Of a DNA stretch of 64,000 nt, positions 16,907 to 58,123 are shown piece by piece. The stretch lies in assembly GCF_002302635.1 (NCBI RefSeq), contig NZ_CP022387.1:2294001-2358000 (forward strand), in the 5' to 3' direction. Each line of letters opens with the position of its first letter. Positions within the stretch are counted from its first letter, which is position 1. The stretch is from Capnocytophaga stomatis (GTDB taxonomy: Bacteria; Bacteroidota; Bacteroidia; Flavobacteriales; Flavobacteriaceae). Both the position numbers and the translations under genes were made by a program. A model generated the notes under the pieces. It searched no databases. It was not told the DNA's origin and saw only the letters and a list, made by a program, of their open reading frames with translations.

Positions 16907-17029
16907 AAAATAAAAATGAAATGATATGATTTTTTAACATATAAGTTTTCATTTTTTATCTTTTAGTTAGAAGAAAAGGTAAAAAAGCTTCGATTTTTTC
17001 TCAAAAAGTTGGGAGTCATTTCAGGCGGA

Positions 17030-17064
17030 CATCCCCCCAGCCCCCTTCAAAGGGGGAGTTGTGG
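17030..17064 (-). repeat. Palindromic C/G-rich element, copy 1
   Basis: The core CCCCCTTCAAAGGGGG is a near-perfect palindrome preceded by CATCCCCCCAG. On the opposite strand it reads AACTCCCCCTTTGAAGGGG, the same family as copies at 17149, 17315 and inside valS at 20264. Confidence 0.8.
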
Positions 17065-17148: not shown

Positions 17149-17480
17149 GAATTCCCCCTTTGAAGGGGATAAGGGGGATGTTTTATGTGAAAATTTAGGC
17201 TTCGACTCCGATCAGCCTGACAGAATTGATAAAAATATGTTGCTTGTCTTCCTGAGCGAAGTCGAAGGATGATATAAATTATTTTTCTTTTGCTTATAAC
17301 GATTGTTTTCTACTGAATTTCCCCTTTGAAGGGGGATAAAGGAGGATGTTTTTATGTGAAAATTTAGGCTTCGACTCCGCTCAGCCTGACAGAAGAGACA
17401 AAAATATGTCATTTGTCTTCCTGAGCGAAGTCGAAGGATAATATAAATTATTTTACTTTTTATTTAAAACAACTATTTTA
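17149..17480. repeat. Tandem duplication of a 166-bp non-coding unit
   Basis: Two adjacent copies (17149-17314 and 17315-17480). Each starts with the palindromic element (GAATTCCCCCTTTGAAGG, GAATTTCCCCTTTGAAGG) and continues with GGGGGATG-like sequence, TTATGTGAAAATTTAGG, then a pair of inverted segments: CTTCGACTCCG(A/C)TCAGCC and, about 30 bases on, CTGAGCGAAGTCGAAGG, which can pair with each other. Identity is highest over the first 130 bp and fades at the end. A short ORF over it is not credible. Confidence 0.85.
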
Positions 17481-17486
17481 ATATTT

Positions 17487-17691
17487 CGGGGTCATCCCGA
17501 TTGCTAAAAATACTTGTTTTTTGTCATCGGGGTTTTCCCGATTATTGTTTTCTGATGTTTTGACATTTCGGGGTCATCCCGATTACAGAAAATGTATGTT
17601 TTCTTACAACGGGGTTTCCCCGAAAGCTATCTATAGATGTTTTGATATTTCGGGGTTATCCCGATTGTTAAAAGTATTTGTTTTGTCATAG
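17487..17691. repeat. Five hairpins in a 41-bp tandem array
   Basis: The core CGGGG-N4-CCCG (in R4 CGGGGTTTCCCCG) starts at 17487, 17528, 17569, 17610 and 17651, exactly 41 bp apart each time. Units 1, 3 and 5 share ATTTCGGGGT(C/T)ATCCCGATT and a following AAAA..TTGTTTT or TGTTTT tract. Units 2 and 4 share CGGGGTTT and a TGATGTTTTGA-like tract, so the higher-order period is 82 bp. The array ends 13 bp before the stop codon side of the minus-strand gene at 17704. Confidence 0.85.
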
Positions 17692-17703
17692 AAATTATTC
17701 TAT

Positions 17704-18726
17704 TTATTTTTCTATTCGAGCAAAAAAATCTTGTATTTTTTTTATAATAGTTTCCCGTGAGTATTGAAGTGCATTAAAATCTTTCATTGAAGTTATTTCT
17801 TTTATGAACTTATCTAATAATTCTCTTGGGGGCATTTTTTTATGTATTTCTACATAAAGCGAAATAAAAACTTTTTTCATTTCTGAAATAAGTGGTATTC
17901 CTTTATATTTAAGATGTAAATTTTCCCAAAATTGCAATCGTTTTTCATTTTGAAAAATATTGAATATAAATTTATTTTCTTTGTAGTTTATATACTTTTT
18001 GTAGGTTTCTCTATTATTTAGATTACAAAAATCAAAAAAAGTAGTATCATCAATACTCGTTTCATAAAATTGAATGATAAAATCATTCATCATTATCAGA
18101 TTTGGATTTGAATCATTTGTATATCCTACAAAATTCCCAGTATATGCCTCTTTTCCCCCTAATGTTTGTAAGTAAGTAATTGAAAGAGGGTATTGATTAA
18201 TATTATCAATATTTAATGACTTATAATTTAAGATGATATTTCTAAGAGTTTTGTTACATATTTCTGTAATTTTGAAACCATCACAGCAAACAGCAGTTCT
18301 CCACACCTGTAAATAAAAAAATAATCTTATGGTTTTGACATCTTCTAAAACAATTTCATTAAAATCTGTAAGATTTACTTCTCGAAACTTAGGAAGGATT
18401 TTTGTGATGAAATCTTCTTCAATACCTGTAAAGTGCTTTTCACACGAACTGCAAAAAGTATTATCAACGGAAAAAGGAATAGCTTTAGCTTTTTCTATTT
18501 CCTCATCTGTAATATTTCTTCCTAAGCGTTCTTCAAGTTTATCTACAGGGGCATTCCTTTGAAAGTTATACTCAATAGACAGAGTGCTATTAGACATATC
18601 AAAATAAAATCCCTTTTCTCTTTCATTACTCCCATCAAAATTCAAAGCTCCACGAATGATGCTATCAGTTAGATAATGTGTATTCTTTTTGTCAGCTTCT
18701 TGAGTTTTACATAATTTGCAAATCAT
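17704..18726 (-). CDS. Orphan protein with two CxxC motifs, HNH-like layout
   Basis: A 340-residue cytoplasmic protein that I cannot assign firmly. It opens MICKLCKTQEADKKNTHYLT, a CxxC followed about 13 residues later by His, and has a second CxxC (CSSCEKHFTGIEED) near residue 92. This pairing of an N-terminal C-x2-C...H with a later C-x2-C-E..., then an all-helical C-terminal region, resembles uncharacterised HNH-like zinc proteins found in accessory regions. The gene is visibly richer in A+T than valS beside it and is flanked by the 41-bp hairpin array, which suggests acquisition. A nuclease role is conjecture. Confidence 0.6.
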   Translation of the reverse strand: MICKLCKTQEADKKNTHYLTDSIIRGALNFDGSNEREKGFYFDMSNSTLSIEYNFQRNAPVDKLEERLGRNITDEEIEKAKAIPFSVDNTFCSSCEKHFTGIEEDFITKILPKFREVNLTDFNEIVLEDVKTIRLFFYLQVWRTAVCCDGFKITEICNKTLRNIILNYKSLNIDNINQYPLSITYLQTLGGKEAYTGNFVGYTNDSNPNLIMMNDFIIQFYETSIDDTTFFDFCNLNNRETYKKYINYKENKFIFNIFQNEKRLQFWENLHLKYKGIPLISEMKKVFISLYVEIHKKMPPRELLDKFIKEITSMKDFNALQYSRETIIKKIQDFFARIEK

Positions 18727-18883: not shown

Positions 18884-21547
18884 TTACCCCCGCAGGTTTT
18901 TAAGGCTTTCCTGAATGGTTTCTATTTTCGCCAGTGCGTCGGAAAGTTTTTTGCGTTCCATTTCCACCACTTTTTCGGGAGCGGAGCTGACAAATTTCTC
19001 GTTGGAAAGTTTTTTCTCCACCGAAGCCAAAAAGCCTTGCGTATATTTGAGTTCCTCTTCGAGTTTTTTGATTTCCTCCTCTACATTGATGTTGCCCTGC
19101 ATCGGGATAAAATACTCGTTGGACTTCACTCGGAACGAAATCGCTCCCTCTACCTTTTGGCTAACATATTTCAGTTCGGACAAGTTGCCCAATTTGGCGA
19201 TAATTACATCAAAAGTCGTTGCCGTTTGTTCGTTGTTGAGTACCGAAAGTGGTATTTCTTCCTTAAACGGAATGTTTTTCTCTTTTCGCACGGTTCTGAT
19301 GCCCGAAATTACTTCGGCAGCGGTTTCAAATTCGGCTAAAATCCGCTCATCAAACGAAGTTATTTCAGGATATTTCGCCACCACGAGAGCCTCCTGAGGT
19401 TTTCGCTCGGTAATATGTTGCCAGATTTCCTCCGTGATAAAAGGCATAAACGGATGCAACAATTTGAGGTTATCCTCAAAAATGGCGATAATTTCCGCAA
19501 ACGTTTTTTGGTCAATCGGCTGACCGTAAGCAGGTTTTACCATCTCCAAGAGCCACGAACAGAAATCGTCCCACACCAATTTGTAGATTTTCATCAAGGC
19601 GTCGGAAATTCGGTATTTTGAAAAATCGTCTTCGGTTTCGGCAAGCACCTTTTGGAACTTATTTTTGTACCATTCTATGGCAATTCGGTTGTTTTCAGGC
19701 TGATTAGCTTCCGAAATCTCCCAACCTTTCACGAGTCGGAAGGCATTCCAAATCTTGTTGGCAAATCCGCTACCTTGTTGGCAAAGTGCCTCATCGAAAA
19801 GTAAGTCATTTCCTGCTGCGGACGACAATAAAAGTCCCACACGAACGCCGTCCGCACCAAAGTCATCAATCAATTTCAACGCATCGGGCGAATTGCCTAA
19901 TTGTTTGGACATTTTTCGTCCCTGTTTGTCGCGAACAATCCCCGTGAAATAGACATTCGTAAAAGGTTTTTTCCCTTTGAATTCGTACCCTGCCATAATC
20001 ATTCTCGCCACCCAAAAGAAAATAATATCAGGACCTGTAACCAAATCATTGGTAGGATAATAATAATTGTATTCTTCGTTTTCGGGGTCTAAAATTCCGC
20101 CAAAAACGCTCATTGGCCACAACCACGAAGAGAACCACGTATCGAGAGCGTCTTGGTCTTGTTTCAAATCAAATCCTCCTTCGATATTTGCCAATTCTGG
20201 GAATTTTTCGAGAGCCAATTTTCGTGCCTCTTCTTCATTTTCAGCGACTACATATTTGCCCTGAAACTCCCCTCCTTGGGAGGGGTTGGGGGAGGATATA
20301 TAATACGCCGGAATTTGTTGTCCCCACCAAAGCTGACGCGAAATGTTCCAATCACGGATGTTTTCCATCCAATGGCGATAGGTATTTTCATATCTTTTTG
20401 GGAAGAAATTGATTTCTTCACTTTCCAAAACTCCGCTGATGGCAGGTTTTACCAAATCTTCCATCTTCAAAAACCATTGGTCGAGTGGGCGTTGTTCGAT
20501 AACAGCCCCTGTACGTTCCGATGTGCCGACTTTATTAAGATAATCTTCCGTTTTCAGCAATAAATCTTTTGCTTCGAGCTCTTTAACTATCTCTTTGCGA
20601 ACTACAAATCGGTCTTTTCCTTCGTAATGCAATCCGTAATGATTCAGTTTGGCATCGTCGGTAAAGGCGTCGATGATTTCGAGTTTATGGCGTTCGCCGA
20701 TTTCGTAATCGTTTTTGTCGTGAGCCGGAGTGATTTTCAAAGCTCCCGTTCCAAACTCAATATCCACGTATTCGTCTTCGATAATCGGCACAATACGATT
20801 AACAATCGGCACGATTACTTTTTTGCCTTTCAGATGTTTGTAACGCTCGTCGTTGGGGTTGATACAAACGGCAATATCTCCAAAAATGGTTTCGGGACGC
20901 GTGGTAGCTACCAAAAGATATTCCTCTGAACCTTCAATTTTGTATTTCAGGTAGAAAAGTTTTCCGTTCTGTTCTTTATAAATAACCTCTTCATCCGAAA
21001 GAGTGGTTTTGGCTTCGGGGTCCCAATTGACCATTCGGTATCCGCGGTAGATGTATCCTTTATTGTATAAATCGATAAACACTTTTATAACCGAAGCATA
21101 AAGGTCATCATCAAGGGTGAATTTGGTTCTGTCCCAATCGCACGAACAACCGAGTTTTTTGAGTTGTTCAAGGATAACGCCACCATACTGATGCGTCCAA
21201 TCCCAAGCGTGTTTGAGGAATTCCTCACGCGTGAGGTTGGCTTTGTCGATGCCTTGTTCTTTGAGCTTTGCCACTACTTTGGCTTCAGTGGCAATAGAAG
21301 CGTGGTCGGTACCCGGCACCCAACAAGCATTGAAGCCTTTTAGCCTTGCACGGCGTATAAGTACATCTTGAATTGTGTTATTGAGCATATGTCCCATATG
21401 CAAAATTCCCGTAACATTTGGCGGGGGAATTACAATGGTGTAAGGTGTTCGCTCATCGGGAGTTGAGTGGAAGAAATTGTGTTTCATCCAGTATTCGTAC
21501 CATTTGCTTTCTACCGAATTGGGTAAATATTTTGAAGGGATTTCCAT
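18884..21547 (-). CDS. valS: Valyl-tRNA synthetase
   Basis: Charges tRNA-Val and edits mischarged threonine. With the ATG at 21547 it has 887 residues. The class I signatures are HMGH in [11 protein letters not shown] near residue 45 and KMSKQLGNS (KMSKS loop with S to Q, usual in this phylum); the C-terminal coiled-coil arm ([13 protein letters not shown]) is present. The TTG at 21586 that would extend it overlaps the -7 box and was rejected. Odd feature: residues about 417-428 ([11 protein letters not shown]) are encoded by a copy of the palindromic repeat found in the nearby intergenic region, inserted in frame before [12 protein letters not shown]. Confidence 0.96.
20264..20296. repeat. 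Palindromic repeat inserted in frame inside valS
   Basis: AAACTCCCCTCC followed by TTGGGAGGGGTTGGGGGAGG, 33 bases, a multiple of three. The palindrome CTCCCCTCCTTGGGAGGGG and the trailing GGGGG-AGGAT match the elements at 17030, 17149 and 17315. Confidence 0.75.
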
Positions 21548-55273: not shown

Positions 55274-58123
55274 ATGAAATATAAACTTACTATTGCTCTT
55301 TTTATTGTATGTCAATGGCTTTTTGCTCAGGAATCCTTTAAAACTTCACTGCGAGCAAGCGATGTGGCAACGTTTTTTTTGCAAGGGAAGGAAACATTCC
55401 GCTGGGAATTACCAATTTCACGACACGAAAAACAGGCTTTGCTCTGGCAACAACGTATAACTCCTTTTACCCAAACGGAAAATATCCGTACTTTTGTAGG
55501 GTATGAACAGACTGATTTTAGGGCAGTCATTTCCATTTCTAACGGAAATATTTTCGGAAATGTTTTTACCGAAAAAGGCGAATTGCGTATTGAAACTTCA
55601 AATGATGGCTTCCTAACACTTCATAGAGACGTAGCCCCAGAGTGCGGACTTTGCTGTCAATCCTCTGAAAATGCAAGCCTAACCGCACGTCCTATGGCAT
55701 CGGAAGAAAGTACACAGACGCCCAAAACCATTGTTAAGCCCGTTCCCGATGATAACGTACTGCGTGTGTATCGTTTGGCATTGCCAGTAGCTTATAATTT
55801 CTTCAAGACACAGTTTCAGAGTGATATCCAGCGTGTGAAAGCCTTTTGGGCGACGGCACAGGCGGGGCTTAACGAAATTTATATGCGTGATGTGGGAGTC
55901 CGCTTTGAATTGGTCAATGACGAGCGTCTGATATTGGACACACCTGAAAAGGAAGTATTTAACAATGTAGGTTCAAATTACATTATCAGTGTGGCAACCA
56001 ATGAGATAAATAAGCTCATTGGCAGTACAAGCTATGATATGGGGCTGTTCCTGTCGCAAACTACGGCGACTGCCCACGGACTGGCATACAAATCCTTTGG
56101 ATATTTCAATAAAAATAAGGCTTCGGCAACGGTGGCAAGTACCGATTTGCGTGCCATAGCCCACGAGTTAGGGCATTTGTTCGGAGCTTCGCACGTACAC
56201 GAGCAGGCGAGTAATACCTCTGGCTATTCGCACAAAACCGAAACAGGCTTGGGACAATCAGTAATGGGATACGGAACGCCTCAGAACTTTTTTTCTCTGG
56301 TAAGTCTGGTAGATATGCGTACCGAACTGCTTGGAATTCCCTACTATACCAACACTTATCGAAACAAAACTGCGGGTAAAAAAACGGTAGCTCCCAACTA
56401 CGACAATTTCCCTCTGGGGATAAAAACAGCCTCCCGAGCTCCGAGGCTCAATCCCTCTTCCGTTAAGGAAAGTTATAAAATTCCACCGAGTACTTTCTTT
56501 GCATTTAACATAGGGGCATCTCACCCTGATAAAAACCAACTTTTGTATATGGCACACCCTGCCGACAAGGCTATAAATCGGGTTTCGCGTGCCAAATTCC
56601 ATACGCACAAACCTTCCGAACATTCTCGTATCGCTTTTGAAGAGGTGTATGGCAGTTCGGGCTATTTGGAAACGCCTTTTCATACCGCTGTGGGCAATCG
56701 TTTTACCTTTTTGATAGGCGTAAGTACGGGAAAGGAGGCTCATTTACGCCCTGATGAAGTGGTACGCTATGATACACGTACATCGCAGATAGAAATAGTT
56801 GATGCTAAGCCTTTTCGCATTACTTCGCCTTTGAAGATATTATACAATGGCGGGGAGAAATTTACGCTTCGATGGGAGGCTGACCCTAAGGTTTTCGCAG
56901 GCACACGCGTACGCATAGTGCTTTCTGATGATTTTGGCAAAACATTCAACTATACATTGGCTGAAAATACTGAAAATGATGGGGAATGTGAACTGGTGAT
57001 GCCACATACTTCTTTTGGTTCGGTGGCTTATAAGAACAACACACGGAGAGTACGTGCGGGAGTTATCAAAGTGGAAGTCATTGACCATATTGCGTATGCA
57101 TTATCTGTAATTAATCCGCTTGATAATACGGGACGATTTGCAGGAGGTTTTGAGTTAGACCCCGCTACGGAAATTACCTTTACCGATGTGCCACAAAGCC
57201 GTGTGGTGTTGCCTTTCGAAAGTGAAATACCTTTAAAACACGAGGTAAAGGCGACCACCCAATGCCGAAACAAAGCCATAGAGCTTATATTTGAGGAATA
57301 TATTGATGAAAATACTTCACAATATAGCAAGGTTGTTACCCGCCAATGGACAGCAAAGGACAAATGCGGAAAAGAGTCCTCCTTTGTACAGTTGATTTAT
57401 GTAGAAAAGCAGGAAGAATCTTTTAAAGAAGAGATTGAAGACGATAATCAAGAGGAAGATTCTGACAGTCAAAATAATTCATCGGATGGAGAAAGGGGTA
57501 ACTCCGATAGCCAAAATAATTCATCGGATGGAGAAAGGGGTAACTCCGATAGCCAAAATAATTCATCGGATGGAGAAAGGGGTAACTCCGATAGCCAAAA
57601 TAATTCATCGGACGGAGAAAGAGGTCGCTCTGATAGCCAAAATAATTCATCGGATGGAGAAAGGGGTAACTCCGATAGCCAAAATAATTCATCGGACGGC
57701 GAAAGAGGTAACTCTGACAACCAAAACAATTCATCGGACGGCGAAAGAGGTCGCTCCGACAGCCAAAATTCTTTGCACGATGATAAAAATATTTTTGATA
57801 TTAATCAGCCGAAGTCGGAAAATGTGGAATGGATAGTTTACAACGGAGTTTCTGCTGAGGTAAGCTCGGAAAACTACTTGAAAATTGCCCCTATTGAACG
57901 TTATACGGACTTGTATATCGAAATTTTTAACGAATTGGGACAAAAAGTATTCCAAGCCAAAGACTATCAACGCAAAGGCGGCGTTTTCAGGGGGTATGCC
58001 AACGTGAAAGGCGTAGTAGGTAAGGGCAAACGCTTGCCGTCGGGTACGTATTTTTACGTGTTGAAATATAAAAACCAAGATAAAAAAATGCATCAAAAAT
58101 CGGGATACTTATATGTGAGGTAA
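55274..58123 (+). CDS. Secreted zinc metalloprotease 1 (reprolysin-like), T9SS type B
   Basis: A 949-residue secreted metzincin. Signal peptide MKYKLTIALFIVCQWLFAQ; prodomain with a CGLCC motif (124-128) then TARPMA; catalytic domain with HELGHLFGASH (297-307, three zinc His and Glu298) and Met-turn SVMGY; Ig-like region; HYR-like domain (about 650-720); seven full plus one partial copies of a 14-residue Ser/Asp/Asn-rich repeat (730-839); and a type B sorting domain with YNGVS, IEIFNELGQKVF and LPSGTYFYVL. Expected to be exported by T9SS and surface-bound or released. Paralogue of the next gene; the C-terminal DNA is nearly identical. Confidence 0.9.
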   Translation: MKYKLTIALFIVCQWLFAQESFKTSLRASDVATFFLQGKETFRWELPISRHEKQALLWQQRITPFTQTENIRTFVGYEQTDFRAVISISNGNIFGNVFTEKGELRIETSNDGFLTLHRDVAPECGLCCQSSENASLTARPMASEESTQTPKTIVKPVPDDNVLRVYRLALPVAYNFFKTQFQSDIQRVKAFWATAQAGLNEIYMRDVGVRFELVNDERLILDTPEKEVFNNVGSNYIISVATNEINKLIGSTSYDMGLFLSQTTATAHGLAYKSFGYFNKNKASATVASTDLRAIAHELGHLFGASHVHEQASNTSGYSHKTETGLGQSVMGYGTPQNFFSLVSLVDMRTELLGIPYYTNTYRNKTAGKKTVAPNYDNFPLGIKTASRAPRLNPSSVKESYKIPPSTFFAFNIGASHPDKNQLLYMAHPADKAINRVSRAKFHTHKPSEHSRIAFEEVYGSSGYLETPFHTAVGNRFTFLIGVSTGKEAHLRPDEVVRYDTRTSQIEIVDAKPFRITSPLKILYNGGEKFTLRWEADPKVFAGTRVRIVLSDDFGKTFNYTLAENTENDGECELVMPHTSFGSVAYKNNTRRVRAGVIKVEVIDHIAYALSVINPLDNTGRFAGGFELDPATEITFTDVPQSRVVLPFESEIPLKHEVKATTQCRNKAIELIFEEYIDENTSQYSKVVTRQWTAKDKCGKESSFVQLIYVEKQEESFKEEIEDDNQEEDSDSQNNSSDGERGNSDSQNNSSDGERGNSDSQNNSSDGERGNSDSQNNSSDGERGRSDSQNNSSDGERGNSDSQNNSSDGERGNSDNQNNSSDGERGRSDSQNSLHDDKNIFDINQPKSENVEWIVYNGVSAEVSSENYLKIAPIERYTDLYIEIFNELGQKVFQAKDYQRKGGVFRGYANVKGVVGKGKRLPSGTYFYVLKYKNQDKKMHQKSGYLYVR
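57461..57790 (+). repeat. 42-bp tandem repeat inside metalloprotease 1
   Basis: Seven complete 42-bp units from 57461, 57503, 57545, 57587, 57629, 57671 and 57713, and a degenerate eighth at 57755. Each encodes SDSQNNSSDGERGN or a one-residue variant (N to R at the last position in units 4 and 7; S to N in unit 7). Because 42 is a multiple of three, several other frames are also open across the array. Confidence 0.95.

Follow-up and report, generated by a model that had tools for sequence, protein, structure and literature searches.

Rickettsia palindromic elements, about 150 bp in length, lie in frame within unrelated protein genes and also between genes (PMC10969869). In PARCEL, palindromic coding sequence has spread across species as tandem amphipathic repeats of surface proteins (PMC2996958). 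REPIN-RAYT systems comprise inverted doublets of short palindromes, their solo remnants and a chromosomal enzyme gene (PMC3116915). Homing endonucleases of the EDxHD/DUF559 (Vsr-like) kind are also known, including an intein-borne DUF559 in Thermosynechococcus, and co-conversion is the expected footprint of their homing (PMC9403480 and PMC3943268).

The family to which a palindrome in valS of Capnocytophaga stomatis belongs resembles the Rickettsia elements in that it consists of short palindromes in frame within conserved genes whose sites are empty in relatives. It is set apart by length, the valS unit being either 33 nt or a pair of about 129 nt, and by its long members, which encode DUF559 between palindromes, whereas the Rickettsia elements are described without a nuclease. 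With the EDxHD/DUF559 homing endonucleases it shares the nuclease family label and an allele-like spread at conserved genes, but its long members are bounded by inverted palindromes, lack a surrounding intron or intein in the loci scanned and carry the nuclease domain only. Inverted palindrome doublets and solo remnants recall REPIN-RAYT; here, however, members lie inside coding sequence, DUF559 stands in the enzyme's place, and a search of the C. stomatis genome for RAYT/Y1_Tnp (PF01797) gave 0 matches, on which ground a RAYT-driven REP was rejected. Palindromic coding sequence and interspecies spread are common to this family and PARCEL, but our family forms single or paired inserts in housekeeping enzymes and includes a nuclease. 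In its workings the family resembles both a homing endonuclease element and a Rickettsia palindromic element, but as tested here it lacks defining features of Rickettsia elements, REPIN-RAYT, inteins and introns. We think it probable that the palindrome in valS is one remaining half of a mobile, protein-coding element; complete, such an element would consist of palindrome, DUF559 and inverted palindrome and would spread by homing.

The window, that is, the whole 64,000-nucleotide stretch of DNA analysed here, comes from a genome of one contig and 2,831,350 bases (G000) with a single full-length ValS match. This host gene, valS (valine--tRNA ligase), occupies 18884..21547 on the minus strand (coding 18887-21547, 887 amino acids plus stop). 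Within it and in frame, the 29-nt motif CTCCCCTCCTTGGGAGGGGTTGGGGGAGG lies at 20267-20295 on the minus strand and codes for 12 residues. The left palindromic unit, ATATCCTCCCCCAACCCCTCCCAAGGAGGGGAG in the sense direction, covers 20267..20299 (minus strand, 33 nt, 11 residues), with the 17-nt hairpin CCCCTCCCAAGGAGGGG at 20269-20285 (minus strand). The first-pass annotation had placed a 33-nt palindrome in frame here, and its presence and reading frame are confirmed; the gain, which it put at about 11 residues, is a net 10 relative to the sister genomes G016, G007 and G005. All six frames of the palindrome are free of stop codons. A scan of the window for the 17-nt hairpin with at most three mismatches returns the valS place only, where both strands match, against 0.05 in shuffles.

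The insert site aligns to a variable-length stretch directly after WYCEDC in Thermus ValRS 1gax. At this site the three sisters, with 95-96% identical ValS proteins of 877 residues, have a shorter, unrelated loop, YGSGKEDF; G004 ValS (85% identical) is also 877 residues long, and across these four genomes the loop is of the YGSGKEDF or YGSDKNDF type. Among close relatives the sister species G008 (ValS 93% identical, 898 residues) alone shares the palindrome. An equal-length loop is not the rule in ValS proteins, the hairpin being carried by five (G000, G008, L162, L167 and G348) of 66 ValS loci, which comprise 62 distinct segments; this distribution, together with the shuffle expectation, led us to reject a chance GC-rich loop. 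Empty sisters and dispersed copies support the earlier proposal that a palindrome of a dispersed family invaded an essential synthetase gene in frame. The Rickettsia-like picture attached to that proposal holds for the invasion itself, but is exceeded by the inverted pair found at valS in distant Bacteroidota and by the DUF559-bearing members. Between G000 and G008, 32 of 33 palindrome nucleotides are conserved, while the adjoining segment is 67-71% identical, a contrast that would favour selection for a regulatory hairpin in synthetase genes, as an attenuator or as an mRNA stability element; since the RNA fold is no more stable than that of shuffles (z -0.63), the position is mid-gene, most relatives lack the hairpin, and RecG, urocanase, GH31 and others contain the same hairpins, we give this explanation almost no weight. 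As a separate observation on this enzyme, the last residue of the KMSKS motif in ValS is Q in G000, G016 and G011 (3 of 19 genus species examined) and S in the rest.

The left palindrome belongs to a two-palindrome unit of about 129 nt at 20171-20299 (minus strand). Next to it lie a divergent helix segment at 20204..20266 (minus strand, 21 residues, 50-58% DNA identity to G016 in the covering windows) and a decayed right, inverted palindrome at 20171..20203 (minus strand, TTCCCAGAATTGGCAAATATCGAAGGAGGATTT in the sense direction), whose counterpart in G348 and L162 is intact. The former is from another family of the class and the latter is a Bacteroidota MAG, and at this valS place both carry the left palindrome, the helix, the right inverted palindrome and GGFxLxQD; the right palindrome of G348, reverse-complemented, equals 27 nt of the G000 valS copy. 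The right palindrome of G000 and G008, although decayed, can still be aligned, with 26 of 57 columns (flanks included) invariant over the four sequences, and L167 valS has a palindrome pair at this site too. In 60-nt windows, valS of G000 and G016 are 92-100% identical, except for 58% and 50% beside the palindrome and 85% near the 3' end. A simple insertion that leaves its neighbours unchanged was rejected on the 58% and 50% windows, and the idea that the divergent 110 nt are a co-conversion tract only was dropped after the second palindrome appeared there in G348 and L162. The valS insert reads as the intact left half of a two-palindrome unit whose right half is decayed. The extent of 33 bp first given for the insert applies to the left palindrome, but the unit is about 129 nt long and the downstream side is also divergent.

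The best match in the class to the G000 valS segment is G348, with 98.4 bits against 86.7 for the next (339 matching genomes of 395), and when 395 phylum genomes are searched with the L162 segment, G000 alone passes E<=1e-26. With the palindrome left out, the G000 segment scores best with G008, L162 and G348, and the L162 segment with G348, G008 and G000, L167 standing apart in both cases. The 18-aa helix alone ranks G008, L162, G348 and L167 for G000, with L167 one point above the next sequence. Further donors did not emerge from the order of G348, where four of 247 genomes pass E<=1e-22, namely G348 and three without the palindrome peptide. The helix is closer to the G348 and L162 alleles than to those of the 95-96% identical sisters, which points to a module that probably moved between species. 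G000 and G008 are sister species, on IleS alone as well (100/99), and a single ancient acquisition can therefore account for the valS unit. Exchange of valS alleles between species by ordinary homologous recombination after natural uptake, with the palindrome carried along and no selfish mobility today, would suit a moved module that has sharp edges and includes real valS helix coding sequence, and between sister species one old event would be enough for valS. We nevertheless hold it to be unlikely, as it leaves unexplained the palindrome-centred transfers, the DUF559 content of the family and the clean leuS gain in G000, described below, with flanks 97-99% identical to G016.

A different situation is found in valS of G009, where the palindrome lies at another place, before ATTRPET, and is paired with a second palindrome. 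The first 41 nt of this copy equal the G008 copy at site A, including the TAT of the site A tyrosine codons, which the empty G016 site lacks, and in this one case the sequence looks like copying between valS sites at a shared TAC. Compared with the empty site of G016, G009 valS has inverted palindromes, about 15 nt replaced and no visible target duplication; for the family, we found neither a target duplication nor a defined target sequence.

Three intergenic relatives with CCCCCTT/AAGGGGG-type arms lie elsewhere in the window, at 17029..17060 (plus strand), at 17150..17181 (minus strand; the inverted partner of the first, with arms 84% complementary and 89 nt between) and at 17315..17348 (minus strand). 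They had been assigned to the same family as the valS insert, with which they share the layout, but their arms are of a different subtype. The 29-nt valS motif occurs once in the whole G000 genome at up to three mismatches; exact copies beyond valS are lacking in this genome but present in sister genomes. On these two grounds, the different arms and the single motif, a jump of the 17-kb repeat into valS was rejected; with the nearest intergenic copies being of a different subtype, a source 3 kb away is unsupported. With a looser hairpin pattern, G000 yields 28 distinct places (34 rows), the reversed control 0. Apart from valS, every one of them, the intergenic places at 17 kb among them, has arms of the TT/AA type, for example CCCCCTTCAAAGGGGG, and among the TT/AA-type places listed none is inside an open frame longer than 185 codons. 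A pattern of 7-nt C/T and A/G arms with a 3-nt loop occurs at two places, ileS and valS, a count that alone is not above chance because the reversed control gives three; in the ileS hairpin, one position is unpaired. Taking the valS and ileS palindromes together with the leuS DUF559, the in-gene members found in G000 are thus all in Ile-, Leu- or Val-tRNA synthetase. The window holds other repeats as well: an intergenic repeat unrelated to the palindromes at 17476-17721 (four copies spaced in a 41/82-nt register, with TTTCGGGGTCATCCCGATT-like hairpins as their basis), a 111-nt direct repeat (92%) at 17181-17291 and 17350-17460 with an inverted CTTCGACTCCG..CAGCCTGACAG / CTTCCTGAGCGAAGTCGAAGG motif, and CATCGGATGGAGAAAGGGGTAACTCCGATAGCCA four times at multiples of 42 nt at 57495-57663.

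Across the genus, copies of the valS subtype with at most three mismatches number 49, in 14 of 20 genomes. Fourteen of them are flanked on each side by 40 or more open codons, eight of these being in ValS, LeuS or IleS; the other six are in a DNA methylase ORF, a Mu-type portal gene, a molybdopterin-oxidoreductase-like ORF (two species), one unnamed ORF and one short and probably non-genic frame. The palindrome in the Mu-type phage portal gene (L068, G031:C11:3743) is in frame near the end of the gene, a possible intergenome carrier. In LeuS of G002, G005, G006, G009 and G013, more palindrome peptides stand shortly before KMSKS, a second insertion place.

In LeuS the long form is seen. Seven of 19 genus species carry, immediately ahead of FTTRPDT, an in-frame DUF559 domain (PF04480) enclosed by inverted palindromes; in G000 the single DUF559 match is inside leuS, and the valS copy there is without a nuclease. 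DUF559 occurs in 13 of 20 genus genomes at 17 places (7 in LeuS, 7 free-standing, 1 broken and 2 weak in other proteins). Near six of the seven free-standing genes (L131-L134, L136, L137), at a distance of up to about 350 nt, there is a perfect family hairpin; the remaining one (L130) has imperfect hairpins only among the matches listed. In the DUF559 tree, the free-standing genus members make up a distant clade. In the 90-nt windows nearest to the G000 leuS element, identity to G016 is 97% (5') and 99% (3'). At the empty site, one filler is common to G008, G016, G007 and G005, and because they share it we place the gain of the element on the G000 branch. Presence of DUF559 in LeuS is patchy, as scattered among species as shuffled labels: on a 19-species ValS+IleS tree the trait requires 7 changes, at least 5 of them forced by well-supported branches, against a shuffled mean of 6.0. 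The catalytic acidic and His residues E25, D66, H70 and D79 are invariant in 7/7 LeuS copies. The dN/dS ratio of DUF559 is 0.12-0.25 in ten genus pairs, with dS saturated except for G002-G006 (0.14), and 0.06-0.27 in nine pairs outside the genus, after exclusion of 5 of the 14 outside pairs with implausible pN of 0.48-0.68, which we attribute to out-of-register ungapped comparison. The DUF559 part of LeuS (1.5e-5) and that of RecG (9.4e-6) are both hit by a homing-endonuclease model.

A scan of named genomes of the phylum with the seven LeuS DUF559 domains returned at least 544 relatives, of which the best 80 were kept; the host-gene sample is therefore biased, these loci being the best of at least 544 relatives of a LeuS-derived query. 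In 67 of the best 80 loci, DUF559 is flanked on each side by 80 or more open codons, and the hosts assigned by motif are RecG (21), LeuS (15), IleS (9, two sites), ValS (7), UvrD-like (6) and others (22), the last including L146, UvrD-like by sequence, and L170, LeuS by Pfam. For 19 of the best 80, Pfam places DUF559 inside or at one end of host domains, and it adds urocanase, GH31, MiaB-like, ABC, MazG, GcpE, guanylate kinase, IspF-type, DegT, epimerase and RNase H hosts; a Pfam/NCBIfam search gave no name to the host at L254. The records carrying DUF559 relatives include many isolates besides MAGs. A family-model search finds DUF559 in 72 of 149 class genomes at E<=1e-15, and 150 listed rows from class genomes divide into 55 in frames of at least 300 aa and 95 in shorter ones. 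One IleS ORF of 1442 aa (L213) has two DUF559 domains. The RecG, LeuS, ValS and one of the IleS sites (e.g. L162, L194, L205, L197) lie a few codons before T[TA][TR]P, possibly a shared target signature.

Hairpins accompany the nuclease domain in most of this sample. Counting perfect, GC-rich hairpins within 150 nt of DUF559 at 79 loci (one was dropped at a contig edge), we find them on the left at 58, on the right at 53, on both sides at 45 and on either side at 66, against 62 of 3055 control windows (2%) drawn from those loci; 13 of the 79 loci have none by this criterion. The left hairpins of RecG (21, of which 20 distinct) are 97.9% paired with compensatory changes at 5 of 7 pairs, figures to be read with the choice of each by best hairpin fit within 110 nt, which favours pairing. 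Their covariation is 0.438 against 0.219 shuffled (0/500) and at most 0.200 in slid controls. In a DUF559 tree of 90 rows and 116 columns, host-site labels change 12 times against 56 when shuffled; the seven UvrD copies form one clade (99%) within the LeuS group and urocanase lies within the RecG group, while 45 of 87 inner branches are weak. By their sequences, DUF559 domains group by host-gene site, a grouping also compatible with vertical descent plus loss.

Such recurrence bears on whether DUF559 is merely a frequent passenger between two short coding palindromes of the Rickettsia type whose mover lies elsewhere. Solos and pairs without a nuclease are common (valS of G000, G008 and G009; LeuS of G005, G006 and G013; G000 ileS; intergenic pairs), and Rickettsia elements too sit in frame in unrelated genes (PMC10969869), but the same nuclease recurs between palindromes at many sites of the phylum, its catalytic residues conserved and its dN/dS low, and G000 has no Y1-type (RAYT) transposase match. 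We consider the passenger role possible, though doubtful. Translational bypass elements in other systems are hairpins, and a hairpin-forming insert in an essential gene might be removed from the product by bypass or as an intron or intein. This we judge very improbable: no Rfam family matches in 8 loci, no intein (Hint) family appears among the Pfam matches of 22 proteins, and the insert is open in frame, the valS palindrome being stop-free in every frame. No added DNA-binding domain stands beside DUF559 in the Pfam matches. A link of DUF559 to palindromes or synthetase inserts was not found in the open-licence literature searched.

The mobile, nuclease-encoding element that we favour builds on the in-frame insertion, the inverted-pair anatomy, the association of hairpins with DUF559, the grouping by host site, the patchiness and the shared valS module. 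As a plausible mechanism, the full element would sit in frame at variable loops of housekeeping proteins, the host protein being made with the insert inside. The Vsr/EDxHD-like nuclease would cut an empty allele of the host gene, and repair from the occupied allele would copy the element together with flanking gene sequence. Pairs and solos without a nuclease, as in valS, may be deleted or non-autonomous forms, copied likewise or moved in trans; the candidate nuclease in G000 is the DUF559 inside leuS. Translation through the insert, cutting, homing and action in trans are what we infer from sequence, in which the long form looks like homing without splicing. Whether this amounts to a new mobile class, a splicing-free, translated homing unit in essential enzymes across Bacteroidota that seeds non-autonomous coding palindromes in paralogues and unrelated genes, is in our estimate evenly balanced; in that reading the unit would persist since its excision would disrupt the host protein.

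Inteins spare their host by splicing out. If homing without splicing is true, translated palindromes would serve as hydrophilic linkers free of stops, through which an essential enzyme could accommodate a nuclease, and the small coding palindromes of several bacteria would gain a candidate mover enzyme. It would also account for extra domains and loops in Bacteroidota synthetases and helicases that annotation pipelines have passed over.
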